A DNA stretch of 60,879 bases from Thermomonas sp. (GTDB lineage Bacteria; Pseudomonadota; Gammaproteobacteria; Xanthomonadales; Xanthomonadaceae), in assembly GCF_025993755.1 (NCBI RefSeq), contig NZ_JAMQHN010000089.1, forward strand, positions 1-60,879, given 5' to 3'. A program made the translations under genes and the position numbers. The notes beneath the pieces are model-generated. The model did not search any database. It was not told the DNA's origin and saw nothing but the letters and a program-made list of their open reading frames with translations. Every line of letters begins with the position of its first letter. Positions within the stretch are counted from its first letter, which is position 1. Below, one piece after another: positions 7,569 through 57,416 of this stretch.

Positions 7569-7610
7569 AGGATAGCGCGTTTCCCACACCGTGCGCTGGC
7601 GTATGGGAAA
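7569..7610 (-). promoter_or_regulatory. Possible oleA promoter with inverted-repeat operator
   Basis: Arms TTTCCCA (7580-7586) and TGGGAAA (7604-7610) are a perfect 7-bp inverted repeat with a 17-base centre. On the minus strand they precede TATCCT (7569-7574), a fair -10 box 46 bases before the oleA start. The placement suggests a repressor or activator site, but no regulator is identified. Confidence 0.4.
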
Positions 7611-34689: not shown

Positions 34690-36300
34690 TCAGTCCGGGC
34701 GCGGCCGGCGGTGCAGGTCCTTGAGGATCTCGCGGGCCGCGCTGCGTCCCGGCAGGCCGGTGACGCCGCCGCCGGGATGGCTGCCGGAACCGCACAGGTA
34801 CAGCCCCTTGAACGCGCCGCGGTAGTTGCCCTGGCCGAGCATCGGCCGGGCGGAAAACATCTGGTCCAGCCCCAACGCGCCGTGGAAGATGTCGCCGCCG
34901 AGCAGCCCCAATCTGCGCTCCAGGTCGAGCGGCGACAGCGCCTCGTAGCCGAGCACGCTGCGGGCGAAGTTCGGTGCGTAATCGTTGACGGTGTCGATCA
35001 TCAACCTGGCCACCGCGTCGCGGTGCGCATCCCAGCCGCCGTCGACCTCGGGGTTCACCTGCTGGCAGAACAGGCTGGCAACGTGCCGGCCCTTGGGCGC
35101 GAGGCTGTCGTCGAGGGTCGAGGAAATCACCAGCTCGACGATCGGCTCGCGCGCCCAGCCGGGGTTGTGCGCCTTCGATTTGGCGTCGAAAAAGGCCTGC
35201 TCGAAATAGCGCAGCGACGGTCCGATCAGGATGCCGCTCTGGTGGTGCGGCTGCAGGTTCGTGCCCGGCGCCGCGGTGAAGTCCGGCAGCTCGGACAGCG
35301 CCACGTTCATGCGGAAGGTGCCCGAACCGCAGCGGTAGCGGCCGATGCGCTGCTCGGTGTCCACGTCCAGCTGCCCGGGCGCCAGCAGCCGGGTATAAAG
35401 CAGCTTCGGGTTCAAGCTGCTGGCGACGACCCGCGCCCGCAGCTCGCGACCGTCGGCCAGCCGCACGCCCACCGCCTTGCCGTCCTCGACCAGCAATTGC
35501 GCGACCTCGGCTTCGGTCTCGATGGTGACCCCGCGCGCCTCGCACTCGGCGCGCATGGCCTGGGTGATCGCCCCCATGCCGCCGATGGCGTGGCCCCAGA
35601 CGCCCTGCTTGCCGTTGACCTCGCCGAACACGTGGTGCAGCAGCACGTAGGCGCTGCCCGGGGTGTACGGGCTGGCGAAATTGCCGACCACCGAATCCCA
35701 GCCCAGCGCCGCCTTCAGCGGCTCGCCCTCGAACCAGGCATCGAGCAGCTCGCCAGCGGACTTGGTGAACAGGTCGAGCAGGTCGCGCCGCCCGCGCATG
35801 TCCAGCGCCTCCAGCTGGCGCACCACCGCCAGCGAGCGGATCCAGTCGGCCAGCACGAAACGGTCGGACACGTTCGGCGGCGTGCGCCGCAGCAGCTCGC
35901 GCAGCACCACCACCACCCGCTCCAGCATCGCGTAGTACTCCGGCAGCCGCTGGGCGTCGCGCGCCGACCACTTGCCGACTTCCTTCAGCCCGGGCTTGCC
36001 GCCGAGCCGGAAGCTGCGCCCGTCGGGCAGCGGCAGGAAGTTGGAATACGGCCGCTCGACGATCCGCAGTCCGTGCTCGTGCAGGCGCAGGTCGGCGATC
36101 ACCGCCGGATTGAGCAGGCTGACGGTGTAGCTCGCCAGCGAATTGCGGAAACCGGGGTGGAATTCCTCGGTGACGGCCGCGCCGCCCACGATGTGGCGGC
36201 GTTCCAGCACCCGCACCTTCAGACCGGCACCGGCCAGGTACGCCGCACAGACGAGGCCGTTGTGGCCGCCGCCGAGGATGAGGGCGTCATCGTTTGTCAT
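34690..36300 (-). CDS. FAD-dependent oxidoreductase, PYROXD2/phytoene desaturase-like
   Basis: 536-residue flavoprotein. The N-terminal dinucleotide motif ILGGGHNGLVCAAYLA, the RHIVGGAAVTEE segment and the C-terminal LYLCGSGSHPGGGVTGLPG are hallmarks of the PYROXD2 branch of the phytoene-desaturase family. Members are amine-oxidase-fold proteins without a settled bacterial substrate; no carotenoid genes are nearby, so a carotenoid role is not claimed. Its ATG overlaps the stop of the TPR protein gene (ATGA, 36297-36300), which implies co-translation. A terminator follows. Confidence 0.88.
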   Translation of the reverse strand: MTNDDALILGGGHNGLVCAAYLAGAGLKVRVLERRHIVGGAAVTEEFHPGFRNSLASYTVSLLNPAVIADLRLHEHGLRIVERPYSNFLPLPDGRSFRLGGKPGLKEVGKWSARDAQRLPEYYAMLERVVVVLRELLRRTPPNVSDRFVLADWIRSLAVVRQLEALDMRGRRDLLDLFTKSAGELLDAWFEGEPLKAALGWDSVVGNFASPYTPGSAYVLLHHVFGEVNGKQGVWGHAIGGMGAITQAMRAECEARGVTIETEAEVAQLLVEDGKAVGVRLADGRELRARVVASSLNPKLLYTRLLAPGQLDVDTEQRIGRYRCGSGTFRMNVALSELPDFTAAPGTNLQPHHQSGILIGPSLRYFEQAFFDAKSKAHNPGWAREPIVELVISSTLDDSLAPKGRHVASLFCQQVNPEVDGGWDAHRDAVARLMIDTVNDYAPNFARSVLGYEALSPLDLERRLGLLGGDIFHGALGLDQMFSARPMLGQGNYRGAFKGLYLCGSGSHPGGGVTGLPGRSAAREILKDLHRRPRPD

Positions 36301-38856: not shown

Positions 38857-39011
38857 TGTCCGGTTCTCCCGTTTCCCGCCCCGCACGCGCCCCGGCATCG
38901 CCTGCGCGAGCAGCGCTACGACTCGCAAAACTTCAAGGGACAATACCGCATCCTCGCCCTGGGCGCGACAAGCCGCGCGTTGCGAGACATTGGCTTCAGG
39001 ACCCGGCTCGG

Positions 39012-41618: not shown

Positions 41619-41793
41619 GTCTTGCCGGTTGCCTGACGAAGGCCACTTATAGGCGGCGCGGCGCAGGCCCGTCAACCGCGCGCGGGGCGAGGCTTGAAGG
41701 TTTCTTGAAGGTTCCGTGAGGACACGCGGACGATCTGCGACCAGCATTGCCCCGATCCCGGCGCGACCCGCCCGGGCGAAACGATGGGGGTTG

Positions 41794-42159
41794 ATGATGG
41801 AGACGCGAAACGCGAACGCTGCGGCGACGGGAAAGAACACTCTGCAGACGATCGGGAGCCGGTTGCGTCTGGCCGCGATCCTCGTCCTTGCGCTACTGCT
41901 GGCGGCGTGCGGCGACGGCATGACCGGCAGATTCGAGGGCGGCGTGACCGGCGAGCAGGTTCTCACCTTCCACGGCAACGGAAAAGCCACCCAGGAAGCC
42001 GCCGGGATGGAGCAGCAGCTGGAATACGAGGTCGACGGCGACAAAATCCGGCTGCGCAACCCCGACCAGCCCGGCACCACCGTGGTGCTGACCCGCAAGG
42101 ACGACGACACCCTGACCGGCGGGCCGATGGGCCTGCTGGAATTCAAGCGCAAGCAATAA
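41794..42159 (+). CDS. Small predicted lipoprotein
   Basis: 121-residue protein with an unusually long basic N-region before the hydrophobic core and lipobox (LALLLAAC, Cys about residue 39). The mature part (MTGRFEGGVTGEQVLTFHGNGKA..., VVLTRKDDDTLTGGPMG) looks like a small beta-rich domain. GGGGG precedes the ATG pair at 41794/41797. It is 18 bases upstream of the MORN/ankyrin lipoprotein gene and likely co-transcribed. No family recognised. Confidence 0.75.
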   Translation: MMETRNANAAATGKNTLQTIGSRLRLAAILVLALLLAACGDGMTGRFEGGVTGEQVLTFHGNGKATQEAAGMEQQLEYEVDGDKIRLRNPDQPGTTVVLTRKDDDTLTGGPMGLLEFKRKQ

Positions 42160-42177
42160 TCCGGGGAGCGAACCGAC

Positions 42178-43875
42178 ATGCGCAAATTGGCACTGCTGTT
42201 GTCACTCCTGGTAGTGGCTGGATGTGCGAAGGAACACGAAATCACCCTGCCCATGGATGGGCGCGCCAGCAACGAGATCTCCCGGATCAACGCCTCGAAC
42301 CAAGTCGATCGACCCTACCGGGTCGATGGAAAGCCATTTTCCGGCGTGGTGGTGGGCCGCCGCGGTGACCAGGTGGTATTACGCGTGCACATGCGCGATG
42401 GCCGCAAGCACGGCGTGACGGAATGGTTCTACAACGACGGCACGCGGCAGAGCCGCGAAGAGGTGGCCTGGGACGAGGCGGATGGCGTGCGGCACACAGG
42501 CGATTCCGAAAGCTGGTGTGAGAACGGCGAACGCCGCTCGCTGACCGAATACAGCCGCAAGGGCCAGCAAGAGCTGGCGCGAAACTGGGATTGTGAAACC
42601 GGCAAACTGGTGGCGGAGTCTAGGTTCGACGCCGAGGGGAGGCAGGACGGGCAGGCAAGCAAATGGGCCCCGAGCGGCACGCTGATCGAACGGGCATCGT
42701 GGAAGGCCGGCGCCTTGCACGGCGACAAGCAGACCTGGGCGGCAAACGGCACGCTGCTCGAGCACGCCCGCTACCGCGAAGGCAAGAGACACGGCCTGCA
42801 GGAAACTTGGCACGCCAATGGGAAGCCCGCCACCCGCGGCGAATACGCCGACGACAAGCCGGTCGGCCCGCATGAAACCCGGGACGAGAACGGACGGCTG
42901 GTGGAAGGCGGCAGTTACGCTGCGGATGGCAGCAAGACCGGCCTGTGGCTGGAACGCAGTGGCGACAGGAGCACAGCCGTGCAGTACGGGCCGGGCGGCT
43001 TCGTGCCGCCGGAGCTGCTGAGCACCTATGCCACGGCGCTGTGGACGCGCCCGAACCCGCAGACGGTCGCCTTCTACCTGGACGAAGGCAAGATCAAGCT
43101 CGGCGATGCGCTGCCGGCAAGCTACAACGGCGATCCGGAGCAAGGACCCTACCAGTTCCCGGTTCGCAGCTGGACCTATCCAGTGATCTTCGCCGACGAC
43201 ACCGTGCTGCCGCTGCTGCTGGAAAGGGGCGCGAACATCGATCAGACCGACAGCGAAGGCCGCACCCGCCTGCTGCGCTGCGTCGAACGGTACCGCTACA
43301 ACGCACGCAACAACGATCTCTGGGTTTGCAGCGCGGCGCAGTTGCAGGCCCTGCTGGACCGAGGTGCGAAGGCCTCGGTCGTGGATCGCCACGGACGCAA
43401 TGCCCTGCACCACCTGCTGAACGTCGCTGTGTACGACGACCGTGGCGACGTGTTTGGCCATGGTGCCACCGAGGCCCGCCAAGCGCGCGTGGCGTTGCTG
43501 GCGGCACTGGTCAAGGCGGGCGCCAACGCCAATGCTGCTGACGAGGAGGGCTACACGCCGCTGGTTCGGGCGCTGAAATCGCGGCACATCGACCTGATCA
43601 AGGCCGTGCTGGCCGCCGGCGCACGCGCAAACGCGCCAGGCCCAGCCGGTACCCGGGCCGTGCATTGGCTGTTCCTCAACGACACCGGCAGCTATGACAT
43701 CCGCGGCGATTTCGTCGCAGAAGCACTGCCACTGCTGGTAGCCGCCGGTGCCGATGTCAACGCACCGCTGGAATGGGACAACCAGCGCGTCACCCTGCGC
43801 GACCTGGCGGTGCGCCACGGACTGGTCGACCTGGTGCGCCTGATCGAACAGAACACCAAACCGGCGAAACCGTGA
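42178..43875 (+). CDS. Lipoprotein with YwqK/MORN-type repeats and ankyrin repeats
   Basis: 565 residues. Lipobox VVAGC at residues 12-16. The N-terminal half holds MORN_2/YwqK-like repeats (GRKHGVTEWFYNDGT, GALHGDKQTWAANGT, GKRHGLQETWHANGK and relatives), about residues 60-260. The C-terminal half carries ankyrin repeats (LLLERGANIDQTDSEGRT, LLDRGAKASVVDRHGRNALH, LVKAGANANAADEEGYTPL and others). YwqK homologues are often labelled antitoxins, but this is an envelope-anchored two-module protein; immunity or scaffold roles are guesses. The next ORF begins on the last base of its stop codon. Confidence 0.85.
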   Translation: MRKLALLLSLLVVAGCAKEHEITLPMDGRASNEISRINASNQVDRPYRVDGKPFSGVVVGRRGDQVVLRVHMRDGRKHGVTEWFYNDGTRQSREEVAWDEADGVRHTGDSESWCENGERRSLTEYSRKGQQELARNWDCETGKLVAESRFDAEGRQDGQASKWAPSGTLIERASWKAGALHGDKQTWAANGTLLEHARYREGKRHGLQETWHANGKPATRGEYADDKPVGPHETRDENGRLVEGGSYAADGSKTGLWLERSGDRSTAVQYGPGGFVPPELLSTYATALWTRPNPQTVAFYLDEGKIKLGDALPASYNGDPEQGPYQFPVRSWTYPVIFADDTVLPLLLERGANIDQTDSEGRTRLLRCVERYRYNARNNDLWVCSAAQLQALLDRGAKASVVDRHGRNALHHLLNVAVYDDRGDVFGHGATEARQARVALLAALVKAGANANAADEEGYTPLVRALKSRHIDLIKAVLAAGARANAPGPAGTRAVHWLFLNDTGSYDIRGDFVAEALPLLVAAGADVNAPLEWDNQRVTLRDLAVRHGLVDLVRLIEQNTKPAKP

Positions 43876-44363
43876 TGTGGAAGGTGTTGCTGTATCTGGT
43901 GCTCGCCGTACCGATGCTTGCGCAGGCGCAGTCCGAGCCGACGACCGATTCCCCGGCCTACCTCGGTTCATTTCCTTCGGTTGAACGAGTTCGCACCGAC
44001 ATCATCGCGAGCGCAGGGGAGGCGCGACCCGAGGAAATCGAAGGTCGTGTCGAAGGCCGCCTCAAGACCCTGGCCAATGCGCTGAGGCACTCCTGGAGGA
44101 GCCGCTATTCAAACCGCGAGACCGGCCTGCCGGTTCCCGGCATCCGAATGGGCACCGGTCGCTGCGGAGCAGCTGCATGCAGCGTATTCGTCTGCACAAA
44201 CGCCTGGAGCGGTACGAGTTCGAGCACCGCACATCCGGAGGGGTGGTGGAGCTCGCGGATTACGACGCTTCCTTGCGACATCGCCGCGAGAAGTGGAAGA
44301 AGGGCTTGCTCCTCCGGATTGCCGCAACGATGTTGGTCATCGGGATGCTGGGGTTGCCCCTGA
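43875..44363 (+). CDS. Short exported ORF, probably frame-disrupted
   Basis: The ATG shares a base with the stop of the preceding gene (TGATG). The first ~100 codons look real: signal peptide MWKVLLYLVLAVPMLAQAQS and a polar mature part (ERVRTDIIASAGEARPEEIEG) with high third-position GC. After about position 44100-44180 the codon bias in this frame collapses (Cys/Ser/Trp-rich), while the frame of 44177-44404 becomes the well-coded one. I therefore read this as one gene with a frameshift, or two genes with a degenerated junction. No family recognised. Confidence 0.45.
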   Translation: MWKVLLYLVLAVPMLAQAQSEPTTDSPAYLGSFPSVERVRTDIIASAGEARPEEIEGRVEGRLKTLANALRHSWRSRYSNRETGLPVPGIRMGTGRCGAAACSVFVCTNAWSGTSSSTAHPEGWWSSRITTLPCDIAARSGRRACSSGLPQRCWSSGCWGCP

Positions 44364-44404
44364 CGGCGACGGCCTATTTCATCGAATCGGGCCGGATTGA
44401 TTGA
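44177..44404 (+). CDS. Small single-TM protein (possible C-terminal part of the preceding gene)
   Basis: 75 residues in good codon usage: a basic cytoplasmic-type segment (MQRIRLHKRLERYEFEHRTS) and one membrane helix near the C terminus (LLRIAATMLVIGMLGLPLTA). GGAG lies seven bases before the ATG, so independent translation is possible. The same frame stays open upstream (EEPLFKPRDRPAG), which is why a frameshifted single gene with 43875-44363 is the alternative. Confidence 0.45.
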   Translation: MQRIRLHKRLERYEFEHRTSGGVVELADYDASLRHRREKWKKGLLLRIAATMLVIGMLGLPLTATAYFIESGRID

Positions 44405-44632
44405 AAAAAGGATGAGCGGAGGGCGCATCCGGTCGCACAGGGATGCGCATGACGAACGGACTACGACGAGACGTTTCCTTCTACGGGTGATTTGGCCAGA
44501 TCGCGGCGCGCACCATCGATCCGGATCTGCCCTTCGCGGACCGGGGCGTCGGCGATTTTCACGGCAGTCCGGCGGCACAGTTAGAACGCACAATGCGGAA
44601 AAGCAGGAAGTACCCAACCGGAGAACAAACCC

Positions 44633-45670
44633 ATGCACGCAAGATCTTTCGTCACGCCGCTGCTGGTGCTTGCAGCGTTCAATGCCGGCGCGCAAACGCC
44701 GCCGTCGTTGCCGTCGTCTGCACTGAAGGCCTGGGAAACCCACGCCCGCCAGTATTGCGGCAGTATCGGGGAGCGCTACGTCGGCGCGAGGTTCAAGCCG
44801 ATGCCGGCCTCGGGCATCGACGGCAGTGGCATGCCTGCGGGGACGGGCCGCTATCTTGCCGTCGATTTCAACGACGACGGCAAGCCGGATTTCGTCATCG
44901 CCACGCCCAACGGCGGCTGCGCCGGCCTCAACGAAGGGCGAGACGGACCGCAATTGACCGTCGAGTTCGTGGTGTCCACGGCCAGCGGCCATGTGCGGGA
45001 TTCGCAAAGTTCAACGGATGGCTACGATTCCACGCTGGTGATGCCCTCCATCAGCCCGGCCTGGGTGCAGCGCCGCGGCAACGCGCAGGTGTTGCGCTAC
45101 CCGACCGGCAGCGCCGGTGCCGGCCGGTGCGGGCCGTTGCCAGCGGAAGTGGTCTGGGGCTGGAATGGCCGCCACGTCGAAGTGCTGGAACGCTACAACG
45201 CCCGGAACCAGCCGGTGGATGCGGAAGGCTGCGCGGCAAGGCCCGCCAGGGCAACGGCGGCGGCGCAGGGCAGGCCGGGCACCACCGCTGCGCGCATCCC
45301 CCTGGCCGTCGGCTATTACGCCTATGTGGAAGGCACGTTCTCGACCTGCGCCAAGCCGGTCGGCGACATGCTGTATTTCGACGGCAAGCGTTTCTGGACA
45401 CCATCGGATTTCACCGACCCAAGGCACAAATTCACGAGTGAAGCACTGAAGTGGGAAATGTCGGCCGCAGACCGCTTCCGCATCACCTCCCGCAGCCGCG
45501 ACGAGGACGGACAATGGGATCCGCACCTCTACGTCACCGAATACGTCATCACCGGCCCGCAGTCGTTCACGTTCGTCGGCACGGTGGGCGGGCGGATGAA
45601 CGCGCGCGAAAACTACCAGCTCTGCCCGAACATTCCCGCCAGATCGAGGTTCTTCAAAGCCGCCAGATGA
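44633..45670 (+). CDS. Exported protein of unknown function with DxNDDG-type calcium loop
   Basis: 345 residues with a signal peptide (MHARSFVTPLLVLAAFNAGAQ). A segment VDFNDDGKPDFVIATPNGGC resembles the Asp-rich loops of FG-GAP/EF-hand-like repeats, suggesting calcium binding. Cysteines at several positions (YCGS, GGCAG, GRCG, GCAA, TCAK, LCPN) fit a disulfide-bonded periplasmic protein. GGAGA lies eight bases before the ATG. It is the last gene of the plus-strand accessory run and converges on the ADP-ribosylglycohydrolase gene. No family recognised. Confidence 0.75.
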   Translation: MHARSFVTPLLVLAAFNAGAQTPPSLPSSALKAWETHARQYCGSIGERYVGARFKPMPASGIDGSGMPAGTGRYLAVDFNDDGKPDFVIATPNGGCAGLNEGRDGPQLTVEFVVSTASGHVRDSQSSTDGYDSTLVMPSISPAWVQRRGNAQVLRYPTGSAGAGRCGPLPAEVVWGWNGRHVEVLERYNARNQPVDAEGCAARPARATAAAQGRPGTTAARIPLAVGYYAYVEGTFSTCAKPVGDMLYFDGKRFWTPSDFTDPRHKFTSEALKWEMSAADRFRITSRSRDEDGQWDPHLYVTEYVITGPQSFTFVGTVGGRMNARENYQLCPNIPARSRFFKAAR

Positions 45671-45702
45671 GCGCGTCGAAGGCGCAGATTCGCCGATTGC
45701 AT

Positions 45703-46488
45703 TCACGCCCCCGGCAGCTCCCCTGCGACGGCGTACAACTGCTTCAGGACCGCAGCCAGATCGTCCGGAAGATAGGCCCAGCCGGCCCTCGCCAGCGCGT
45801 CGTCGATTCCGAACAGCGCCTCTGCCACGCCGCCGGCGATCGCCGCGATGGTGTCGCTGTCGCCGCCGATCGAAATCGCGTTGCGGATCGCATCCTCGTA
45901 ATCGCGCGCCTCCAGCGCACAGGTCAGCGCCTGCGGCACGGTGTCCTGGCTGCGTTCGTTGTAGACGTAGTGCGGACGGATCGCATCGACCGATGCGGAC
46001 AGGTCGTAGCCGAATCGCTGTGCGATTCGTGCGCGGATTTCGGGTGGCGAACAACCGGCCCGCGCCAGATGGATCGCAACCGCCGTGGCCGCGGCGCCGC
46101 GCATGCCTTCAGGGTGGTTGTGGGTCACCTCGGTGACGCGATCCGAAAGCGCGATCGCCTCTCCCACGCTGGCTGCCAGCATGCCCGCCGGAGACACCCG
46201 CATCGCCGCGCCGTTGCCGAGGCTGTTGTACGGCCCCATGTCGTCGTGCGTCAGCCACACCGCGAAGCGTTGGCCCCAACCGCCGTTGCTCCAGTAGCGT
46301 CGCCCCCATTCGCGCAACGCCACCGCGGGATCCTTGTCGTCGAGCAGGGCGTCGGCCACCGCGATCGTGCACACCGTGTCGTCGGTGAAGAACGCCTGCG
46401 GATGAAAGAACGGCTGGAAGTCCTTGGCCCGATGGTTGTCGAATTCGTAAACCGACCCGACGATGTCGCCAATGACCGCGCCCAGCAT
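45703..46488 (-). CDS. ADP-ribosylglycohydrolase family protein
   Basis: 261-residue DraG/ARH-like enzyme that removes ADP-ribose from proteins or other molecules. Magnesium-site motifs are FFTDDTVCTIAVADAL near the N terminus and GGDSDTIAAIAGG near the C terminus; LGAVIGDIVGSVYEF is the usual opening. ATG 46488 with GAGGAG seven bases upstream is favoured over an upstream extension to 46539. No ADP-ribosyltransferase partner is seen in the window. A DUF1801/YdeI-type gene lies upstream on the same strand after 47 bases. Confidence 0.92.
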   Translation of the reverse strand: MLGAVIGDIVGSVYEFDNHRAKDFQPFFHPQAFFTDDTVCTIAVADALLDDKDPAVALREWGRRYWSNGGWGQRFAVWLTHDDMGPYNSLGNGAAMRVSPAGMLAASVGEAIALSDRVTEVTHNHPEGMRGAAATAVAIHLARAGCSPPEIRARIAQRFGYDLSASVDAIRPHYVYNERSQDTVPQALTCALEARDYEDAIRNAISIGGDSDTIAAIAGGVAEALFGIDDALARAGWAYLPDDLAAVLKQLYAVAGELPGA

Positions 46489-46535
46489 GGTGGTCTCCTC
46501 GCTGCATGGATCGAACGTTGCCGACCACGTCCCGG

Positions 46536-47135
46536 TCAACCGCCCTGATGCTTCCAGTTTCGCGGCTTGCCTTCACCGATCCACTCCAGCGCCTGCTCAA
46601 CCCGCCGGGCGCGAGTCTCGGGACGCTTGGCGCCGATGATCCATTCGGCGTACTCGCGCTGCTTGCCGGGCGTGAAGCCGTCCCAGGCCTTGCGCGCCAT
46701 CCTGTTGCCGCGCATGGCCATGGCCAGGTCGTCCGGAAGCGGCAACGGCGGCCTTGGCTTGCGTCCGCCGGCCCCGGAGACGCCAGCATCGATCAACGCC
46801 ATCGCCGCACGGATGTGGCCCGTGGTCTCGCGCTTTGCCGGCAAATCCCCGAGCGCGGCGATGCGCCCGTACTGGCCCATGCCATCCCGGGCCGCGGCAT
46901 CGGCGCCCACCACCTGCTTGCCGTGCCACAGGTTGAAGGCCGCGTGCTGCTTGAACCCGGCCATCACCCCCAGCAGCTTGTCGTTGTAGGTGAACGCCGG
47001 CGCACCCCACTTGATCGTCTCCAGCGCCGCAGGACAGGCCACGTGCACGCGGCGGCGCAGCTCCTCCAGGATGGGTCGGGCGAAATCGGCCTGCCGCGAG
47101 ATGTAGGCGTCGACACGTGGATCGTTGCTGGCCAT
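46536..47135 (-). CDS. YdeI/OmpD-associated family protein (DUF1801 plus OmdA)
   Basis: 199 residues. N-terminal DUF1801-like domain (DPRVDAYISRQADFARPILEELR, then IKWGAPAFTYNDKLLG and FKQHAAFNLWHG) and C-terminal OmdA-like part (GFTPGKQREYAEWIIGAKRPETRARRVEQAL). Such proteins are small, cytosolic and stress-linked, with no agreed activity. ATG 47135 is preferred; a GTG at 47144 would add three residues. Same strand as the ADP-ribosylglycohydrolase downstream, possibly co-transcribed. Confidence 0.88.
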   Translation of the reverse strand: MASNDPRVDAYISRQADFARPILEELRRRVHVACPAALETIKWGAPAFTYNDKLLGVMAGFKQHAAFNLWHGKQVVGADAAARDGMGQYGRIAALGDLPAKRETTGHIRAAMALIDAGVSGAGGRKPRPPLPLPDDLAMAMRGNRMARKAWDGFTPGKQREYAEWIIGAKRPETRARRVEQALEWIGEGKPRNWKHQGG

Positions 47136-47272
47136 GGCGCTCACCGTTTGCCTGCGGTTTGGCCATTGTGCATCAAGTCATTGCGACCCTCGGCGGCAGG
47201 ATTGATGCAGCCATGTGCTTCCGACGTGCCAAGGCGGTCGACCACAGCGCCCGATGACCGGCGCCCGCACCG

Positions 47273-47890
47273 TCAGGGGCAACGGACTGCGAGCACCCGC
47301 CCTACATGTACGAGCACGGTGACGGTGGGCCCATCCGGCGACTCGCACTGGTCGAGGAGATCCTCCGCGGTATTGGCGCCCCAACCCGCGAGCTCGATCT
47401 CACGCATCCGGCCATCGGGCGCGCGCCCTTTCAAGGTGATGAAGATGTAGCCGGCCGGGCTCCTGAAACTGCGCTTGAGTGTTTTTTCGAAACCGGTCAT
47501 GCGCAACACCTCCGGGCCGGACACGAGGTCGCGGACGGGGTTGCTGGCGGCGACGAGCCCAAGCGCGGCGGCGACTCCTGCCAATGCCCACAAGGCCCGC
47601 TTGCCGGCACCCGCGTTCTCGACGGCGTAGCGCCCGATGCAGACGAGGATGAGCGCCGTGCCGACGAGCTGCCAGGCAGCGCGCACGCCAATGGCCCACG
47701 GCCAGGTTTCGAGCGTGGGCGAGGCGAGCCCGGTGACGAGGGCGCCCAGCAACAGCCCGGTGATGTAGATCGCACTGGCCACCATCAAGAACAGGCTTGC
47801 CGGATCCTGGTCGCTGCGACGCTGGCTCGCGTAGGCAGCGACCAGAATGATCACCACGACCAGCGCGATCCCAACCGGTATCCACATCAT
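47273..47890 (-). CDS. Membrane protein of unknown function
   Basis: 205 residues. Four hydrophobic helices in the first 120 residues (MWIPVGIALVVVIILVAAY; SLFLMVASAIYITGLLLGAL; AAWQLVGTALILVCIG; LWALAGVAAALGLVAA), followed by a soluble C-terminal domain of about 80 residues (GFEKTLKRSFRSPAGYIFI ... VTVLVHVGRVLAV). No family recognised. Upstream lies a 311-base gap, downstream 137 bases to the YdeI-like gene. Confidence 0.75.
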   Translation of the reverse strand: MMWIPVGIALVVVIILVAAYASQRRSDQDPASLFLMVASAIYITGLLLGALVTGLASPTLETWPWAIGVRAAWQLVGTALILVCIGRYAVENAGAGKRALWALAGVAAALGLVAASNPVRDLVSGPEVLRMTGFEKTLKRSFRSPAGYIFITLKGRAPDGRMREIELAGWGANTAEDLLDQCESPDGPTVTVLVHVGRVLAVRCP

Positions 47891-48201
47891 GGTCCCGTTC
47901 CCTCGGCCCGACCCGGAATCAGGCTACAGCACCCGGGAAATTTCCGCGTCCGACGCCGTTGTCCCCAGCAAGCCGCATCGGCTGTCGCAACCGCAACGTC
48001 AGGATACGCGCACGATGAGCCGCGCATTTGGCGATCGGTTCCCCGCGAGGTAGATTCGATGGAACATCCGCTGTTTGCCGTCCTTTACCTGTCCGGCAGC
48101 GCGACGTATGGAGAGCAGCGTGCCGGGGTAAGGCACAGCCCACCCACGTCCGGACGAAGGCGAGTCAAGACCATGCGTGTCCTTTTCTGTTGCTGCAGCG
48201 C
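47891..48201. other. 311-base intergenic stretch, nothing recognised
   Basis: Between jetD and the four-helix membrane protein gene, both on the minus strand. It must hold the promoter of 47273-47890 and the 3' end of the Wadjet transcript. A short open frame from 48061 on the plus strand (MEHPLFAVLYLSG) has no supporting features. No hairpin with a U-tract is evident. Confidence 0.5.
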
Positions 48202-49407
48202 TCAGCCAACGCGGCCTGAATCCACCGGAGGCATCGCGGGATCGAGCGTTTCCTGTTCGAGCCGCAGCGGCCGGCGAGCCAGCGCCTCAGCCACCTGCGG
48301 CCAGCCCGATCGCGTGGCCCAGCGCTGCATGGCGGCAAGCGCGGCGGGCGCGGGCATATCTGCGGCATCAGCCACTCTCGCCGGCAAGGTCGCAGGCGAC
48401 ATCAGCCAGGGCTGCAGCACATGTCCCGCGTCGCGCGCGGTCGCCGCCAGCACGGCGGCGATGCGGAAGCCGCCTTCGTCGATGTCGCCCCAGTGGTAGA
48501 CCGGCAACGCCGTCGGCAGGCTGGCGAGCAGCCGCGCATAGGCGTCTCGCCACGCCGGCGAGGGCATGCCGCCGGTGTACAACAGCAAGGTCGATGCAGC
48601 GTCCGGCGATCGGGTCGCGTCGTGGAAGCTGGCGAGGTTCTCGACGGTGAGCACACAACGCGCAGCAGTCGCCACCGCACGCACCGACTCGACCGGCAGG
48701 CCCAGATACGGGCGCACCAACGGCAAGGTGGCGTCGGCCAGCTCCACCGAACCGATGCCGGCCAGCAGCATCGGCTGCGGTTCGCGGCGCAGGCCGATGG
48801 CCGACCACACTTCCTCCTTCGACAAGCCGCTGGCGGCCAGTTCGCCGGCGACCAGGATGTCCAGCCATGGGGTGAGTTTCTCCAGCTGCTTGCTGTCGCC
48901 GAACAGGCGCACGCTTTCGCGGCGCAGGATGCGTTCGTGGCCGGCATCGTCCAGCCGCGCGGCCACGGCGCGGGCCGCGTCGGCCAGTTCGCCGGCGGCC
49001 TCGGGGCCGGTGCCGCGCGGCTTGCGATTGGCGCGCCACGCCGCGATCACCTCGTCGAGCACCGGGAAGCGGGCGCGCCAGGGTTCCAGCGTACGTTCCG
49101 CCTGCGCCACCCGGTCGTCGAGCAGCTCGATGTGGAGATGGCGTGCCAGGGCGCACGTATCCGCCACGGCCAGACGCAGCAGTTTCGAGCCGTCGCCACT
49201 GCGGCCTTCGCGTTGCGCGGTGATGGCGCCGTCGTGCTCGGCCAGCGCGATCTCGCCGTGGAAGATCTCCAGTTCATCCAGCGAACGCAGCGCGAGGTAC
49301 TCCGCCGCGCCGCCCATCGGCAGCGACACATGCTCGTCGGCACCGCGCAGACGCGCGCTTTCGGCGCGGCGCAGCAGGCGTTCCAGCAGCTGCCGCGCTG
49401 CGCTCAC
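48202..49407 (-). CDS. jetD: JetD, Wadjet TOPRIM nuclease subunit (DUF3322/DUF2220)
   Basis: 401 residues. In Wadjet systems JetD is the TOPRIM-fold endonuclease, related to topoisomerase VI, that cuts plasmid DNA recognised by the JetABC motor. The C-terminal TOPRIM motif is visible: Glu256 in VENLASFHD, and Asp308/Asp310 in YHWGDIDEGGF. The N-terminal part (ARQLLERLLRRAESARLRG, then DEHVSLPMGGAAEYLAL) fits the DUF3322 region. Translation begins at GTG 49407, overlapping the jetC stop (GTGA). Last gene of the operon. The metal ligands are intact, so the nuclease should be active. Confidence 0.92.
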   Translation of the reverse strand: MSAARQLLERLLRRAESARLRGADEHVSLPMGGAAEYLALRSLDELEIFHGEIALAEHDGAITAQREGRSGDGSKLLRLAVADTCALARHLHIELLDDRVAQAERTLEPWRARFPVLDEVIAAWRANRKPRGTGPEAAGELADAARAVAARLDDAGHERILRRESVRLFGDSKQLEKLTPWLDILVAGELAASGLSKEEVWSAIGLRREPQPMLLAGIGSVELADATLPLVRPYLGLPVESVRAVATAARCVLTVENLASFHDATRSPDAASTLLLYTGGMPSPAWRDAYARLLASLPTALPVYHWGDIDEGGFRIAAVLAATARDAGHVLQPWLMSPATLPARVADAADMPAPAALAAMQRWATRSGWPQVAEALARRPLRLEQETLDPAMPPVDSGRVG

Positions 49408-52400
49408 GGGGGCGCCTGCTCGCGGGCGATGCGCGCGGCTTCCTCGGCCAGCAGCTCGGGGTGCAGGTCGAACTGGTCGCTGAGCAGCAGTTCGCGGGCG
49501 GCCGGCTTCACCTCGATGCGCTCGGCCTGCAGCAGGTCGCCGTCGCGGAACAGCTCGATGTAGCTTTCCAGCACGCCGCTCAGGGTGCCCTGGGCGGTGT
49601 CCGGCGCGGCCAGGATCAATTGCAGGCCGAGCGAGCGCAGGTAGTCGACGGTGGCGCGGGCGTTCTGCGCGTCGATCTTGTCGCCGAATTCGTCGAGCAG
49701 GACCAGGCCGATGCCGCCCGCATGCGCCTCGCTCTTGCCATAGGCCGCGGCCAGCGCCGCGCCGGCGATCACGTACAGCGGCGCGCGATGCTCGCCACCG
49801 GAGCCCGAGCGCATGCGCTCGCTGAGCGTGCCGATGACGCGATCCTCCTGGCGGATCTGCACCTCGAAGCGGAAGAAGCGGCGGTAGTCGTCCAGCGGCG
49901 AGGCGAGGGTGCGGACCGCGGCGTTGTCCTCGATCAGCTCGCGGAAGGCGGGCGGCACTTCGCCGGCGCTGCCGAACAGGTTGTCCTCGCCGCCCACGTC
50001 GGCCACGCGCTGGATGAAGCGGTGCAGCTCGCGGTATTCCGGCGCCACTTCGTAGTGGAACTGGTAGCGCTCGTTGTTGGAGAACGCGGGACTGGCGCGC
50101 AGTGTGCGGTTGAGCGTGTTGATCTGGTACTTGAGCTTGCTGAAGTTGTCGTACAGCGCGGAGGCGACGTTGGCGCGGAAGGTTTCCACCGCCGTCGTGT
50201 AGGCCTGCTCGGCCTCGCCCTGGTAGTTGGCCAGCTCGGTATCGCGCAGATGCGCCAACTCCTTCGCCAGCAAAGCACCGGCTTCGCGCCAGTCGCCGGA
50301 AGCAAAATCCAGGTCGAGGCCATAGTCCTTGGCGTATTGCGACAACGCGCTCCAGGCGCCTGGCAACAGATCGTTCAGCTGCTTGTCGCTGTTGCGGGCC
50401 CGCTCTTCGCAACGGTCGCTACGCTCCTTCAACGTGGGCAGCTTCGCATCGAGTTCCTCGCGTTGACGCTCGACGCGGTTGGGGTCCACATCGGTATGGG
50501 CGAAGGCCTCCACCGCACGCTGGGCGACCAGGGATTCCTGGGCGCGCAGACCATCGAGAAGACGCTCCGCGCTTTTGACGGCATCTTCCGCCAACGCCAC
50601 CTTGCCGAGCAGGTCGTCGCGCTTGCCGCGCCATTCGAGCATGCGCTCGTGCAACTGGCGCACCTGTTCACCCAACCTCAGCAAATCCGGGTCGAGCGTC
50701 GCCTGGCGGCTTTCCATCGCGGCGCGATAGCGGCGCTCGACTTCGCGATGCTCCAGCACGCGTTCGTGCAGCGACTGCGCCGCCTCGTCGGGATCGGCCA
50801 GCCGCGCCAGGCCGCGCTGGCAGGCTTCGGCGCGGTCCAGTTCAGGTTTCAGCTGGCGCACGTCGCGCTCGGCCGCCTCGATGTCCTCGCGCAGCGCGCG
50901 CAGGCGGTCGCGATTGTCGGTGGCGCCGATCTTCAGGTCGCCGGCGGCCGGCAGCCGCAGGCGTTCGATGCTGCCACCCTTGGCGAGCAGGCCGTCGCGG
51001 GTCAGGCCCTGGCGGCTGCGGATCAGTTCGGCCTCGGTGTCCACGCAGCGCAGCTCGCCCAGCTGGCGACGCAGGAAGGCCAGCGCGTCGGCGTTGTCGC
51101 CTTCCAGCAGGGCGGCCACGCTGTCGCTGGCGGGCCGTTCGGCACCGCGGCCACTGCGCGCCTGACTGCTCAGGGCCAGCTTGACGCCGTAGACCGAGCG
51201 GCCGCCCTGCAGCGAACGATACAGTTTCGTCGCGCGCTCCTCGGCGTCGGCGGGAATCAGCAAGGCCTCGACGTTGCTGCGCAGGTAGGCCTCGATCACC
51301 GGCTGCCAGCTGGCATCGCTCACCCGCACCAGGTCGCACACCGGTTGCGCATCGATGCCTTCGTCGCGCAGGTAGCTCATCAGGCGCACCGCGTCCGGGT
51401 TCAGTTCGGCCTGGCCGGCGGCGAGGCGCTTCTGGTTCTGCCGCGCGCCTGCCAGCCGGCCCTGCGCTTCGTCGAACGCACCGTGCAGCGCCCGGGCGTG
51501 GCCGTCGACCGCCTCGATCAGCGGCCTGGCGGCGGCCAGCACCTGGCGCGCCTGCGCGTGCATCGGCTCGGATTCCCACGGCAGCCCGGCGTCGGCGGGC
51601 AACGCCGCGAGCGTGCCGTACCAGTCGTTCCAGGCGGACTGGGCGTTGGCCAGCGCGCCGGCATCCACGCTCGGCAAGCCCAGCTTGCGGACCGCGGCGA
51701 ACTGGTCGCGGACGAAACCGATCTCGCGCAGCAAGGCCTTCTTCACCTGCGCCAGGCGGTCGCGGTCGCGCCCGGCCAGTTCGTCGAACTGCGCCTGCTC
51801 GCCGTAGCCCTGGCTGCCTTGTAGGCGCGCGTTGGCCTGGGTGTGCGCCTCCTCGGCCGCCTGCTGTTCGAGATTCGCTTCCTGCAGCGCGCGCCGCGTG
51901 GCGGCGAGCTTGTCACCGGCCTGCCCGTGCGACTCCCCGGCCTGTTCGACCTGCTCGGCCAGCAGGTCGCGCGCGTACTCGGCGGCCAGCGCGCGATACG
52001 AAGCGGCGCGCACGGCCTGGGCGGCGATCTTCGTGTACTGCTGCTCGACGCCTTCGGCGGCGCCGATGCGCTGCACCACCTGCTCGATCTTTTCCTTGAG
52101 CTGGCGGAAGGTGGCCAGCAGCGCGCGGAAGCGGGCGATGTCGGTGGGACGATCCTCGGCGACCAGGGTGCGCACGAACAGGTCCACGTCCTCGACGCGC
52201 TGCAGGTTCAGCGCGTTCTGGAACGCCTTGCGGTAGGCGCCGACGTCCGGATGGGCGGTGGGCGCGGCGCGCAGCCGGAACAGCAGGTCCTTGACGAAGC
52301 GTTCGCTGGTCGGGTGCAGCTCGGGCTTGCTGCCGGCCTCGCGGCAGCGGCGCAGGGCCAGCTCGCGGAACGCGATCCACTCCAGCGGCAGTTCCCTGCC

Positions 52401-52835
52401 CTGGCTGCGTTCGAGGTGGTCGTCCAGCTCCAGCGCCGCGCCGGGCAGCATGTACTGGCCGTAGACGCGATGCTCCGGCTCGTCGGCCGAGGCGCCCAGG
52501 GCGATGCCGCAGGTGAGCGGCACGCCGCTGTCCTGGTCGCGGAACACCAGGGTGATGTAGGTGGTGGCGGTGCGCCGCTTGCGGCCATGCTCGCCGCTGC
52601 GGTACACGCCCAGGCAGTAGTCGCGGATGCTGCGCGCCCGGGCGCTGCCGCCGGCCTGCGCGTTGAAGCGGATGCGGCTGCGGTCGCCGCCCAGCAAGAC
52701 GATCTGCAGCGCATCGAGCAACGCGCTCTTGCCGGCGCCGTTCGGCGCGATGATCGCGCTGGTGGCGTCCAGCGTCAGGGTCTGCGCCTCGAACAGGAAG
52801 AACTGCACCAGGTGCACGCGCTCAAGCAGCTGCAT
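49404..52835 (-). CDS. jetC: JetC, Wadjet SMC-like ATPase (MukB/SbcC-type)
   Basis: 1143-residue SMC-like ATPase that, with JetA and JetB, extrudes DNA loops and senses small circular DNA. Walker A is APNGAGKS at 30-37, just after the MukB-like opening LLERVHLVQFFLF. Two long coiled-coil regions rich in Glu/Arg/Leu flank a central hinge-like part (about 440-620). The ABC signature SGSGGEH is at 1010-1016 and Walker B GLVLLDE at 1043-1049, followed by FGDKID. All nucleotide-binding residues are intact. The start overlaps jetB by 14 bases, the end overlaps jetD by 4. Confidence 0.94.
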   Translation of the reverse strand: MQLLERVHLVQFFLFEAQTLTLDATSAIIAPNGAGKSALLDALQIVLLGGDRSRIRFNAQAGGSARARSIRDYCLGVYRSGEHGRKRRTATTYITLVFRDQDSGVPLTCGIALGASADEPEHRVYGQYMLPGAALELDDHLERSQGRELPLEWIAFRELALRRCREAGSKPELHPTSERFVKDLLFRLRAAPTAHPDVGAYRKAFQNALNLQRVEDVDLFVRTLVAEDRPTDIARFRALLATFRQLKEKIEQVVQRIGAAEGVEQQYTKIAAQAVRAASYRALAAEYARDLLAEQVEQAGESHGQAGDKLAATRRALQEANLEQQAAEEAHTQANARLQGSQGYGEQAQFDELAGRDRDRLAQVKKALLREIGFVRDQFAAVRKLGLPSVDAGALANAQSAWNDWYGTLAALPADAGLPWESEPMHAQARQVLAAARPLIEAVDGHARALHGAFDEAQGRLAGARQNQKRLAAGQAELNPDAVRLMSYLRDEGIDAQPVCDLVRVSDASWQPVIEAYLRSNVEALLIPADAEERATKLYRSLQGGRSVYGVKLALSSQARSGRGAERPASDSVAALLEGDNADALAFLRRQLGELRCVDTEAELIRSRQGLTRDGLLAKGGSIERLRLPAAGDLKIGATDNRDRLRALREDIEAAERDVRQLKPELDRAEACQRGLARLADPDEAAQSLHERVLEHREVERRYRAAMESRQATLDPDLLRLGEQVRQLHERMLEWRGKRDDLLGKVALAEDAVKSAERLLDGLRAQESLVAQRAVEAFAHTDVDPNRVERQREELDAKLPTLKERSDRCEERARNSDKQLNDLLPGAWSALSQYAKDYGLDLDFASGDWREAGALLAKELAHLRDTELANYQGEAEQAYTTAVETFRANVASALYDNFSKLKYQINTLNRTLRASPAFSNNERYQFHYEVAPEYRELHRFIQRVADVGGEDNLFGSAGEVPPAFRELIEDNAAVRTLASPLDDYRRFFRFEVQIRQEDRVIGTLSERMRSGSGGEHRAPLYVIAGAALAAAYGKSEAHAGGIGLVLLDEFGDKIDAQNARATVDYLRSLGLQLILAAPDTAQGTLSGVLESYIELFRDGDLLQAERIEVKPAARELLLSDQFDLHPELLAEEAARIAREQAPP

Positions 52836-53463
52836 CGTCGCCCTCCCTGGCTTCGTCCCCGTCGTCGTCGGGCAGGTCGTCGTCGCGGTTGTGCTGGTCC
52901 AGCCGCTGCAGCCATTGCTCGCCGACCACCTCGACGATGGCCGGGCGCGCGCGCAGGTGGAACGGCTGCGGGTCGTCGCTCTCGGAGTCGACCAGCCGGC
53001 ACACGCCCCAGCGCTTGAGCGTGCGCGCCAGCGCGCGCAGCGCGCCGACCTCGGGCATCGCCCGTCCGACCAGCGCCTGGTAGGCCTCCTGCAGCTCGGG
53101 CAGCTCCACCACCACCTCGCCCTGGTCCTCGATCTGCCCCTGCCGCGCGGCCTCGTCGTAGCGCTGGCGCAACACCAGCAGCAACAGCGTTTCCTCCAGC
53201 GTCACCGGCGTGCCTTCGCCATGGGCGGGCAGCGCCACCACGTAGCGGTAGTGCGCGTTGCGTTCCAGCCGGATGCCCAGCGGCGCCAGCGCGGCGAGGT
53301 AGTCGTCGAAGTGGTCCTCGATCAGGTGGTAGGCCACCTTCGTGCCGCGGTCGCTGGCGTACAGCACCTGCTCGGTGACCAGGCGCCAGGCGGCGCGCTC
53401 GAAGTCCTGCACGGTGTAGATGCCGTTGGACATCTGGCTCAGCGTGTTCCAGCTGCGTTTCAT
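52822..53463 (-). CDS. jetB: JetB, Wadjet MukE-like subunit (DUF4194)
   Basis: 213-residue small subunit, the MukE/kite-type partner that bridges JetA and JetC. The N-terminal QDFERAAWRLVTEQVLYASDRG and AYHLIEDHFDDYLAALAPLGIRLER, then ETLLLLVLRQRYDEA, match the DUF4194 pattern I associate with JetB. The C-terminal tail is strongly acidic (DDDLPDDDGDEAREGDD). ATG 53463 overlaps the jetA stop by 4 bases. Call is firm because of the neighbours. Confidence 0.92.
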   Translation of the reverse strand: MKRSWNTLSQMSNGIYTVQDFERAAWRLVTEQVLYASDRGTKVAYHLIEDHFDDYLAALAPLGIRLERNAHYRYVVALPAHGEGTPVTLEETLLLLVLRQRYDEAARQGQIEDQGEVVVELPELQEAYQALVGRAMPEVGALRALARTLKRWGVCRLVDSESDDPQPFHLRARPAIVEVVGEQWLQRLDQHNRDDDLPDDDGDEAREGDDAAA

Positions 53464-54920
53464 GCGGTCTTCCTCGGCCGGCTGATGATGAAGCGCGGCG
53501 CGCGCAGGTAGTCGTTGTCGCCCGGTGCGCCGGCGTCGAGCAGCTCGACGCGGAAGCCGCGCAGCAACCGCGCCCGCGGATCGTCGCGGCGCAAACCGCC
53601 GACGCGGTGGCTGCGCAGGGCCAGGGTGAGCAGGGTCTGGTAGGCGCGCAGGTCCTCGATGGAGGCGATCGCGAGCTGCGTGGAATCGACGCTGCCCCCG
53701 GGTGGCAGGTGGCGGCCGACGTAGCGGGCCATGTCTTCGGCGTTGACCAGCCGCGCGCGTTTCATCCGTCGCAGCAGGCTCAACCGCGCCAGCTGCTCGG
53801 GCGTCGGTTGCTGCACGGCATTGGCGCTGCGCGCGATCGGCTGGGGCCTGCGTCGCGGCGGGCGCAGTTGCGAGTCGTCCATCAGCGCGCCGGGCGCCAC
53901 CGGCAGGCGCAGGGCGTCTTCGGGCGCCTGCAATACGCCACGGCAGGCGCGGCGCAGCAGCACGTCGAGCTTGTCCGGCGCGCGCAGGCGGTAGTCGAGG
54001 AAGGCCAGCGCGCGGCGGTTGGCCTGGCGGATGTCCTCGTCCAGGCGGCCCAGGTATTCGTCGATGCGCTCCAGTTCGTGCAGGCGGCGCAGGCTGCGTT
54101 GCAGGCGCGCTTCGGCGCGTTCGGCATCGCCGGCGGTGAGGTGTTCGCGATACCAGCCGAGCATGGTGTCGTGCAGCGCCGTGCCTTCGACCTGCTGCGC
54201 CATGGCGAGGATCGCGCTGCGCCGCGCCAGCGGATGGTCGGCCTTGTGCAGGTCGGCGTAGTCGCCGACGAAGAAGCTGGAAACGTAGCGCTCGAACCAC
54301 TGTCGAGCGAACTGCGCGGTGGTTTCCGAGCGCGACAGTTCCGGCATCAGGTCGCGCACCTTCAGGCTCATCGAGGACAGCGACACCAGCAGCCGGCGTG
54401 CCTGGTCGGCAGCCTCGTCCAGCGCGTCGCCGAAGGCCTTGCCCTCGACTACCTGCTGCAACTGCAACTCGATCGAACGCACCTTGGCCGAGACGAAGGT
54501 CGGGCCGTGCTCGGCAAACTCGACCAGGGTAGAAAGGAATTGCGACACCGCCGGCATCATCGACACCATCTCGCGCGCGCCGACCCGCTCCTGGCGCAGC
54601 CAGCCGGCGGAGCGGAAGCGCTCGTGGATGGCATTAGCGCGGTCAACCAGAGAGGCGTCGGGCACCTCGCCAGGATCGCCTTCGTCGACCCACGGATCGT
54701 CGGTAAGCAGGTAGTTTTCCAGTGCGGCGGTGATCTCGCGACGCTGAAAGCCGATGCTGGGCGGCAGCGGTGCGTCCGGCCCGAAGAACTGCTCGAACAG
54801 GCGGCACAGCAATTCCCAGTAACGTTCGCGGTTGGCGCTGGCGAGCGGCCCGAACAGCCCGGCAGGCAGCACAGCGAACAACGGCGGAGCGGTGCTGGCG
54901 TTCGGGTGATGATCCATCAT
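53460..54920 (-). CDS. jetA: JetA, Wadjet MukF-like kleisin (DUF3375)
   Basis: 486-residue kleisin subunit that links the JetC heads. A DUF3375-like sequence: winged-helix-type N terminus (RERYWELLCRLFEQFFGPD), ENYLLTDDPWVDEG, then a long helical middle (IELQLQQVVEGKAFGDALDEAADQ) and a C-terminal part ending in FIISRPRK. First gene of the operon. I chose the ATG at 54920 (MMDHH); a CATAAT box sits six bases before it, and there is no ribosome binding site, so initiation may be leaderless. DUF3375 as JetA places the system in type I of published Wadjet schemes. Confidence 0.92.
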   Translation of the reverse strand: MMDHHPNASTAPPLFAVLPAGLFGPLASANRERYWELLCRLFEQFFGPDAPLPPSIGFQRREITAALENYLLTDDPWVDEGDPGEVPDASLVDRANAIHERFRSAGWLRQERVGAREMVSMMPAVSQFLSTLVEFAEHGPTFVSAKVRSIELQLQQVVEGKAFGDALDEAADQARRLLVSLSSMSLKVRDLMPELSRSETTAQFARQWFERYVSSFFVGDYADLHKADHPLARRSAILAMAQQVEGTALHDTMLGWYREHLTAGDAERAEARLQRSLRRLHELERIDEYLGRLDEDIRQANRRALAFLDYRLRAPDKLDVLLRRACRGVLQAPEDALRLPVAPGALMDDSQLRPPRRRPQPIARSANAVQQPTPEQLARLSLLRRMKRARLVNAEDMARYVGRHLPPGGSVDSTQLAIASIEDLRAYQTLLTLALRSHRVGGLRRDDPRARLLRGFRVELLDAGAPGDNDYLRAPRFIISRPRKTA

Positions 54921-54926
54921 CCATCG

Positions 54927-54956
54927 ATTATGCGGTGGCTCAGTGCCCGCTGTCCG
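54927..54956 (-). promoter_or_regulatory. Possible Wadjet operon promoter
   Basis: On the minus strand CGGACA (54951-54956) and CATAAT (54927-54932) are 18 bases apart. The second hexamer ends six bases before the jetA ATG. Both match consensus moderately. Confidence 0.4.
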
Positions 54957-55334
54957 GCAACGCCAGGGTGCCATCAAGTATAGGAATTTCAAACGCCCTT
55001 TCCGGGCAGTCTGGCGGGTAGGTGGCGGCTGCGCAAGCGCCGGTTGGCGCTCAGATCGGTGGTCCACGCGTCGGCTTGCTGCCGCGCGCACGTCGGCGAG
55101 GATTCGGCGAGGATCCAGTCTATCCGCCGAAGGTACGTCTCCCGATCCATTCGATTCTAACTGGCAGTGCCCGCACACCACGCGCAAAAAGCCGTGCTCG
55201 AGCATCCCGCAGCGCAGATACGGCCGCTCAGGGTTGCGCCCGCGACCACACCTTCATATCGGCGTTTTCTGCTTTTCGCGTCAGACATTGCCGCGGCGCA
55301 GGCAGGAACCCTCCGACCTCGGACGCCAGAAAGC
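54933..55334. other. Intergenic stretch between jetA and groEL
   Basis: About 400 bases without an intact gene. It holds the putative jetA promoter at its left end, a 28-codon transposase-like scrap at 55155-55238, and the groEL terminator just beyond its right end. Long frames crossing it are antisense extensions of jetA or groEL. Confidence 0.6.
55155..55238 (-). pseudogene. Remnant of an IS91-family transposase (zinc-binding N-terminal segment)
   Basis: About 28 codons reading RNPERPYLRCGMLEHGF then LRVVCGHCQLE. This matches the pattern ERYL-CGIL-GF-RV-C--C of the zinc-finger region near the N terminus of IS91-type (Y1/Y2 HUH) transposases. A stop codon lies a few codons upstream and similarity ends abruptly downstream, before jetA. 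No other part of the element is seen. The assignment is from motif memory over a short stretch. Confidence 0.45.
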
Positions 55335-55363
55335 ACAAAGCCCGGCACGAGGCCGGGCTTTGT
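55335..55363 (-). terminator. Terminator of groESL
   Basis: Perfect 12-bp stem ACAAAGCCCGGC / GCCGGGCTTTGT around a five-base loop, 25 bases after the groEL stop; on the minus strand the stem ends in CTTTGT followed by GCTTTCT. Confidence 0.85.
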
Positions 55364-55388
55364 GGTCAGGCTTGCCGGATGGCTGTGC

Positions 55389-57059
<1,671 letters not shown>

Positions 57060-57081: not shown

Positions 57082-57372
57082 TCAGCCGAGGATGGCGAAC
57101 AGGTCGTCTTCCTTCACCACCAGATACTCGACGCCGTCGAGCTTGACCTCGGTGCCGCTGTACTTGCCGAACAGGACCTTGTCGCCCACCTTGACCTGGG
57201 TCGGACGGGTCTGGCCGTTGTCGAACACCTTGCCGGTGCCGACGGCAACCACTTCGCCCTTGATCGGCTTCTCGGTGGCGCTGTCGGGGATCACGATGCC
57301 GCCCGCGGACAGCTTCTCTTCTTCCATGCGCTTGATGACCACACGGTCGTACAGCGGCTTGATATTGGACAT
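57082..57372 (-). CDS. groES: Co-chaperonin GroES
   Basis: 96-residue 10-kDa cap of the GroEL chamber. [16 protein letters not shown], the mobile loop [19 protein letters not shown] and [20 protein letters not shown] are the standard sequence. AGAGGT precedes the ATG at 57372. First gene of the heat-shock operon. Confidence 0.99.
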
Positions 57373-57416
57373 GAGCAACCTCTGCAAATGGTTGATTGAT
57401 TGGGAAAAACCCGGTC

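Follow-up and report, generated by a model that had tools for sequence, protein, structure and literature searches.

A complete type I Wadjet operon downstream of groEL in a Thermomonas-type bacterium, and related JetABC loci that lack the JetD nuclease

Sequence and profile evidence identifies positions 48202 to 54920 of the DNA analyzed here (a 60,879-nucleotide stretch from Thermomonas sp., contig NZ_JAMQHN010000089.1; hereafter, the window) as a complete type I Wadjet operon with intact genes, including the one for the JetD nuclease. We hold with high confidence that it is a complete Wadjet type I (JetABCD/MksBEFG) anti-plasmid system, which a Thermomonas-type bacterium probably gained by horizontal transfer, with insertion after groEL. 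On its own, it is an ordinary though complete type I Wadjet, one more of a known system. Its relatives in the Lysobacterales led us to a broader reading, to which we give an even chance of being right: JetD was lost on about a dozen occasions, in at least one case in situ with shared neighbors on either side, while JetABC stayed intact, selected, and working, and the window lineage was rearmed by gene transfer.

RESULTS

The window carries a complete type I Wadjet operon

The source assembly comprises 2.69 Mb in 207 contigs and is 99.3% complete. As the preliminary description stated, four genes lie on the minus strand in the order jetA-jetB-jetC-jetD and read as one operon:

jetA, 53460 to 54920, minus strand: 486 amino acids; kleisin, MksF-like; PADLOC JetA1 (E 4.9e-232); Pfam PF18982 JetA (175 bits)
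jetB, 52822 to 53463, minus strand: 213 amino acids; KITE subunit, MksE-like, DUF4194; PADLOC JetB1 (E 3.3e-99); Pfam PF13835 (80.7 bits)
jetC, 49404 to 52835, minus strand: 1143 amino acids; SMC-like ATPase, MksB-like; PADLOC JetC1 (E = 0, 1635 bits)
jetD, 48202 to 49407, minus strand: 401 amino acids, GTG start; TOPRIM nuclease, MksG-like; PADLOC JetD1 (E 2.5e-153, 509 bits); Pfam PF09983 JetD_C (61 bits)

The junctions overlap by 4 bases (jetA/jetB, ATGA), 14 bases (jetB/jetC), and 4 bases (jetC/jetD, GTGA), also as described earlier, and the genes contain no stops or frameshifts. For all four products, the best PADLOC models were of type I and spanned nearly the full length. Models of types II and III scored far lower (JetC2, 48 bits versus 1635 for JetC1; JetD3, 21 bits versus 509 for JetD1). 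The Pfam matches above the cutoff were JetA PF18982, DUF4194, SbcC_Walker_B, and JetD_C PF09983. The DUF4194 domain expected of JetB was thus recovered. The proposed identity of JetA as DUF3375 was rejected, as DUF3375 gave no match and PF18982 was found instead, and the DUF3322 domain expected of JetD gave no match at E ≤ 0.1. The G+C content of the operon (0.67 to 0.73 per kb) falls within the range of the window, in its upper part. No near match of the operon was found on plasmids. Sequence searches of the PDB returned no solved relative for JetA, JetC, or JetD, and these three proteins are therefore distant from those that have been studied.

The three ATPase motifs of JetC, said earlier to be kept, were read in their alignment columns: Walker A (APNGAGKS) from residue 30, the signature (SGSGG) from residue 1006, and Walker B (LLLDEFGD) from residue 1041. 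The Glu and Asp-X-Asp of the TOPRIM site also held up, with E256 and D308-I-D310 present in JetD and all three acids invariant in a 15-row JetD alignment. A predicted JetD model (mean pLDDT 89.9, pTM 0.62) was matched by Foldseek to MksG of C. glutamicum (8b7f), TopoVI-A (1d3y), JetD of P. aeruginosa (7til), and Spo11 (8urq), with E values of 1.5e-8 to 2.2e-5 and TM-scores of 0.29 to 0.38 by query length; the alignments to the full-length JetD and MksG structures had high rmsd values. JetD is thus predicted to be a TOPRIM nuclease with an acidic triad and a TopoVI-A-like fold, at moderate TM-scores.

Could the window copy nevertheless be dead or decaying? Its kind is patchy in the genus, and decay is visible in some relatives (genomes G407 and G155). 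The window genes, however, are open and tightly overlapping with intact motifs, and all four have dN/dS values well below 1 (against Rhodanobacter T12-5: jetA, 0.16; jetB, 0.29; jetC, 0.24; jetD, 0.41). We consider a decaying copy quite improbable.

The Wadjet mechanism has been established for relatives of this system, according to passages of PMC10586767, and it is extended to the window operon by analogy. JetC dimers with the kleisin JetA and the KITE subunit JetB would load on DNA and extrude loops driven by ATP. If the circle is small, the DNA available to the machine would run out, upon which the JetD nuclease would be activated and the circle cut. JetABC is also similar to MukBEF (same passages), and relatives retain jetC under constraint without jetD, so that the operon could be a MukBEF- or MksBEF-type condensin that organizes the chromosome rather than a defense system. 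An operon for such a condensin would be expected to lack a nuclease gene, whereas the window encodes a complete JetD in which the three acids are all present; the type I profiles score far above the Pfam MukB model (E 0.06), and a canonical SMC is already encoded elsewhere in the genome. Profile searches, which the preliminary description had proposed as a way to detect a MukBEF or condensin without JetD, assigned the genes to Wadjet type I. We regard the condensin explanation as very unlikely. The window shares with the solved Wadjet type I/MksBEFG systems the gene set, its order, the ATPase and TOPRIM motifs, and the predicted JetD fold; it differs in being distant in sequence and in its site after groEL. 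With P. aeruginosa MksBEF it shares, at the level of subunit types rather than of compared sequences, the SMC-kleisin-KITE triad, but it keeps JetD.

The operon sits in an insertion at a variable site

The features that surround the operon are as follows:

groES, 57082 to 57387: named by eye
groEL, 55389 to 57029, minus strand: right neighbor of the insertion; PF00118
Insertion, 38885 to 55388: ∼16.5 kb between groEL and the gene at 38.9 kb; left border placed to ∼100 bases
groEL-jetA intergenic stretch, 54921 to 55388, minus strand: weak promoter-like site at 54956 to 54927; terminator-like site after groEL at 55354 to 55339
IS91-transposase-like short stretch, 55205 to 55140: inside the groEL-jetA intergenic stretch
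OmdA/YdeI-type gene, 46536 to 47144, minus strand: Pfam; island passenger
ADP-ribosylglycohydrolase gene, 45703 to 46539, minus strand: Pfam; island passenger, found in 2 of 25 genus genomes (its own and G016)
FAD-oxidoreductase-like gene (named by eye), 34690 to 36300, minus strand: directly after groEL in several relatives

In the 18 relatives whose sequence was fetched around groEL, groEL itself was always matched and the dsbD side was matched in 17 (all except G018), and what lies downstream of groEL was variable across the genus. The operon was absent after groEL in all 18, over a visible stretch of 1.5 kb (G016) to 9 kb, and of 18 kb in G020. In G020, the nearest relative, groEL is followed by ∼720 bases and then by sequence in the window order, which starts at 38.78 kb and descends to 25.2 kb; the part at 36 to 38 kb is doubled. 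This gap of ∼720 bases means that ∼16.5 kb is extra in the window. The gene found in the window at 34.7 to 36.3 kb lies within ∼110 to 180 bases of groEL in four further genomes (G006, G010, G011, and G014). In G016, which has no jetC, two island genes are joined to the 38.9-kb position of the window, and the contig ends before the jet side. On the basis of these comparisons downstream of groEL, we place the operon in an insertion at an often-changing site, in agreement with the earlier statement that it was inserted beside groESL.

That statement went further and suggested a defense-gene locus with a transposase scrap upstream. A PADLOC scan of seven neighbors in or near the island revealed no convincing defense gene: five gave no match, one matched generic kinase models, and one gave a partial PDC-M72A match, so the several clustered systems of a defense island were not found. 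The kinase-type domain belongs to an island open frame at 39012 to 42290, which drew many PADLOC kinase models, and the partial PDC-M72A match to its neighbor at 42178 to 43875. As for the scrap, a likeness to the IS91 family does exist, over at most 20 residues (best E, 0.03), but it has no Pfam match at E ≤ 1 and is not a recognizable transposase of the kind an IS91/ISCR-borne element would carry. The genome holds no second copy of the groEL-jetA stretch beyond a 38-base match in its terminator part. Hence, although the changing content after groEL and the short IS91-like stretch upstream of jetA would suit a transposon-carried defense island or hotspot, we find this explanation unlikely.

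Two resemblances to other loci were also seen. A 68-base segment (window 54978 to 55045) is 84% identical to positions 7438 to 7505 of locus L043, downstream of groEL in both. The OmdA/YdeI-type gene has a counterpart just after jetD in locus L064 (82% identity over 613 bases); both copies are close to jetD but oppositely oriented, and the gene may be a shared passenger.

The operon was probably acquired by horizontal transfer

Of 25 genus genomes, 6 carry jetC, the window's own included, as expected of a locus that is not uniformly conserved, the point on which the preliminary description had proposed a presence/absence check. The other five copies are sited away from groEL as far as is visible: jetC and groEL are ∼1.7 Mb (G003) and ∼0.75 Mb (G011) apart on the same contig, they occupy different contigs in G017 and G019, and G021 has no groEL match. 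The window JetC is 88% identical to that of Rhodanobacter sp. T12-5 and 86% identical to that of Frateuria sp. STR12, compared to 72 to 78% within its own genus. DsbD, encoded near groES, shows the reverse (72 to 87% in five genus genomes versus 44 to 60% in Rhodanobacter T12-5). Since JetC is nearer to Rhodanobacter and DsbD nearer to the genus, transfer is likely, and the JetC tree joins the window with three Rhodanobacteraceae in a clade with support of 96/96.

The jetABCD operons of Rhodanobacter T12-5 and Frateuria STR12 resemble that of the window in all four products (JetC, 88/86%; JetA, 90/89%; JetB, 93/89%; JetD, 72/67% identity). They differ in their flanks, which are common to other Rhodanobacteraceae (L049 to L054) and which were not found in the window at that sensitivity. 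Horizontal transfer is the likely and best reading of these sequences for the origin of the operon. The larger clade that contains Rhodanobacter also includes jetD-less jetC rows from Thermomonas, which leaves some room for old vertical descent with losses.

Many relatives carry jetABC without jetD

In a tblastn examination of 55 JetC loci, no JetD was detected in 23. Removal of second copies (L004, L057, and L093) and of two fragments (L088 and L096, the latter cut by a contig end) resulted in 51 rows, the window included, of which 32 have JetD and 19 do not. The latter are distinct Lysobacteraceae loci with an open JetC:

jetD-less loci: L058, L059, L062, L072, L074, L076, L077, L079, L081, L082, L083, L090, L095, L097, L098, and L099 to L102

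Both jetA and jetB were found in 18 of them; the contig of the remaining one, L058, starts inside jetC. A JetD profile matched nothing at E ≤ 0.1 in these loci except weakly in L059. A genome-wide JetD search of 18 JetD-less genomes (that of L079 left out) gave nothing at E ≤ 0.01 in 16; G028 had a weak match elsewhere (28.9 bits), and G026 had a 36-residue remnant. The same search detected JetD in 10 of 10 JetD-bearing control genomes. The jetD-less Thermomonas and other Lysobacteraceae loci resemble the window in JetC (72 to 78% identity in the genus) and in the order jetA-jetB-jetC where the contig reaches, and they differ in the absence of JetD, those two matches apart. In the five other genus genomes with jetC, there was no JetD_C match at E ≤ 0.01, one of these genomes (G021) being only 78% complete. 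Three genus genomes without a jetC of this kind (G002, G007, and G010; L103 to L105) gave strong JetD_C matches unlike the window JetD and probably represent other Wadjet types.

Of 395 evenly sampled Lysobacteraceae genomes, tallied by jetC and jetD only, 59 have this JetC at E ≤ 1e-200. JetD is adjacent in 36, four of which have a short or interrupted copy (G398, G155, G342, and G407); JetD went unmatched at E ≤ 1e-5 in 22, and in G097 the sole match was weak and located elsewhere. In G155 (L158), a JetD remnant that covers only profile residues 2 to 108 and 359 to 395 follows an open jetC at 7606, and in P. mexicana (L059) a remnant lies directly after an open jetC. Because these remnants adjoin an open jetC, both represent losses.

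The possibility that a substitute nuclease is encoded downstream of jetC where jetD is missing was considered and rejected: the following frames differ by locus and include LacI-type regulator, MoeB/ThiF-like, and FMN-oxidoreductase-like genes (mechanical open reading frames, named by eye), with no common candidate. Twelve family genomes have a long JetD match and no JetC at E ≤ 1e-200, a control set that was chosen by JetD and so is unable to reveal JetD-less operons; in 11 of them, jetD sits next to a jetC that is more distant in sequence. The twelfth (L154, G253:C1) carries a JetD-like gene, and nothing in the stretch examined matched jetA, jetB, or jetC.

JetABC is maintained where JetD is absent

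In 22 JetD-less family genomes, stop-free JetC matches ran from residue 1 to 3 through residue 1137 to 1142 (of 1143). Of 23 JetD-less rows, 20 have APNGAGKSALL as Walker A and one has APNGAGKSAIL; the remaining two (L004 and L058) represent a single locus in duplicate, whose sequence departs from these readings in the first 50 bases of its contig. Nei-Gojobori dN/dS values for jetC ranged from 0.08 to 0.34 in six pairs from two JetD-less clades and from 0.09 to 0.24 in eight pairs with JetD, and the top value of 0.34 may reflect mild relaxation in one Pseudoxanthomonas clade. A canonical SMC was present in all 24 genomes tested (the window's own, the 22 JetD-less genomes, and G097), so JetABC is an extra and not a replacement.

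JetA columns that are invariant with JetD vary somewhat more without it (0.31, against 0.175 with an SD of 0.086 in label shuffles; L097 and L078 left out), a relaxation that stems partly from one four-row clade and that we did not count as evidence for a lost contact. The idea that the JetB N terminus is kept only with JetD was rejected, as this terminus is very similar whether or not JetD is present.

One explanation for these data is that jetABC without jetD is an inactivated defense remnant on its way out, as passages of PMC11680222 suggest for Stenotrophomonas maltophilia. The same passages cite inactivation of the defense by jetD deletion, and the more variable JetA columns would fit. 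On the other hand, JetC is open over nearly the whole query, the ATPase motifs are intact in the readable rows (all except the one locus at a contig end), the dN/dS ranges with and without JetD overlap, and conservation of >95% is reported there for S. maltophilia. We view the remnant explanation as possible yet somewhat doubtful.

JetD presence changed about a dozen times

A careful JetC tree of 49 rows (the long rows L097 and L078 left out) requires 12 changes in JetD presence, all 12 forced by starred branches, and its bootstrap trees require 12 or 13; a quick tree of all 51 rows gave 13 changes, 12 of them forced. Such counts alone cannot distinguish losses from gains. Distances between loci are correlated for JetC and JetD (Spearman 0.644 over 31 loci; none of 999 permutations reached this value), and the nearest neighbor is the same in both proteins for 21 of 31 loci. 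This correlation and the common neighbors fit coinheritance and loss better than repeated gain, although these sequence comparisons would still allow for some exchange of jetD between loci.

In one pair, L081 without jetD and L094 with jetD, from two Lysobacter species, both flanks are in common. L059 compared to L056 and L060, and L062 compared to L061, share the downstream flank only; the upstream flank of L062 and L061 was not in common at that sensitivity. Under the reading of repeated JetD loss, JetABC alone might serve as a second condensin or as a noncutting plasmid tamer beside the normal SMC, and the window operon would be the rearming of a JetD-less lineage by gene transfer.

DISCUSSION

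How much of this was known? According to passages of PMC11680222, 82% of S. maltophilia strains have Wadjet I, in most cases lacking jetD and located in an island with RecBCD; the jetD-less form is there called probably inactive. Passages of PMC9148166 report jetABCD in most Xylella strains. A phrase search of the literature for Wadjet lacking jetD, with most subscription journals outside its coverage, returned only PMC11680222. Repeated jetD loss across the order was not described in the titles and opening abstract lines among the matches listed, in a search that likewise covers few subscription journals. As far as searched, then, the absence of JetD with JetABC kept is known in one species and apparently has not been described across the order.

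Close relatives that differ in whether a given locus includes jetD, such as L081 and L094 in Lysobacter, are natural pairs, and they make the existing proposal that MksBEF-type condensins arose from Wadjet by JetD loss directly testable. Labeling jetABC as "Wadjet" or "inactive" may misname a chromosome machine. If our reading is true, the proposed transition from an immune system to a chromosome machine would have been replayed naturally and repeatedly in the Lysobacterales.
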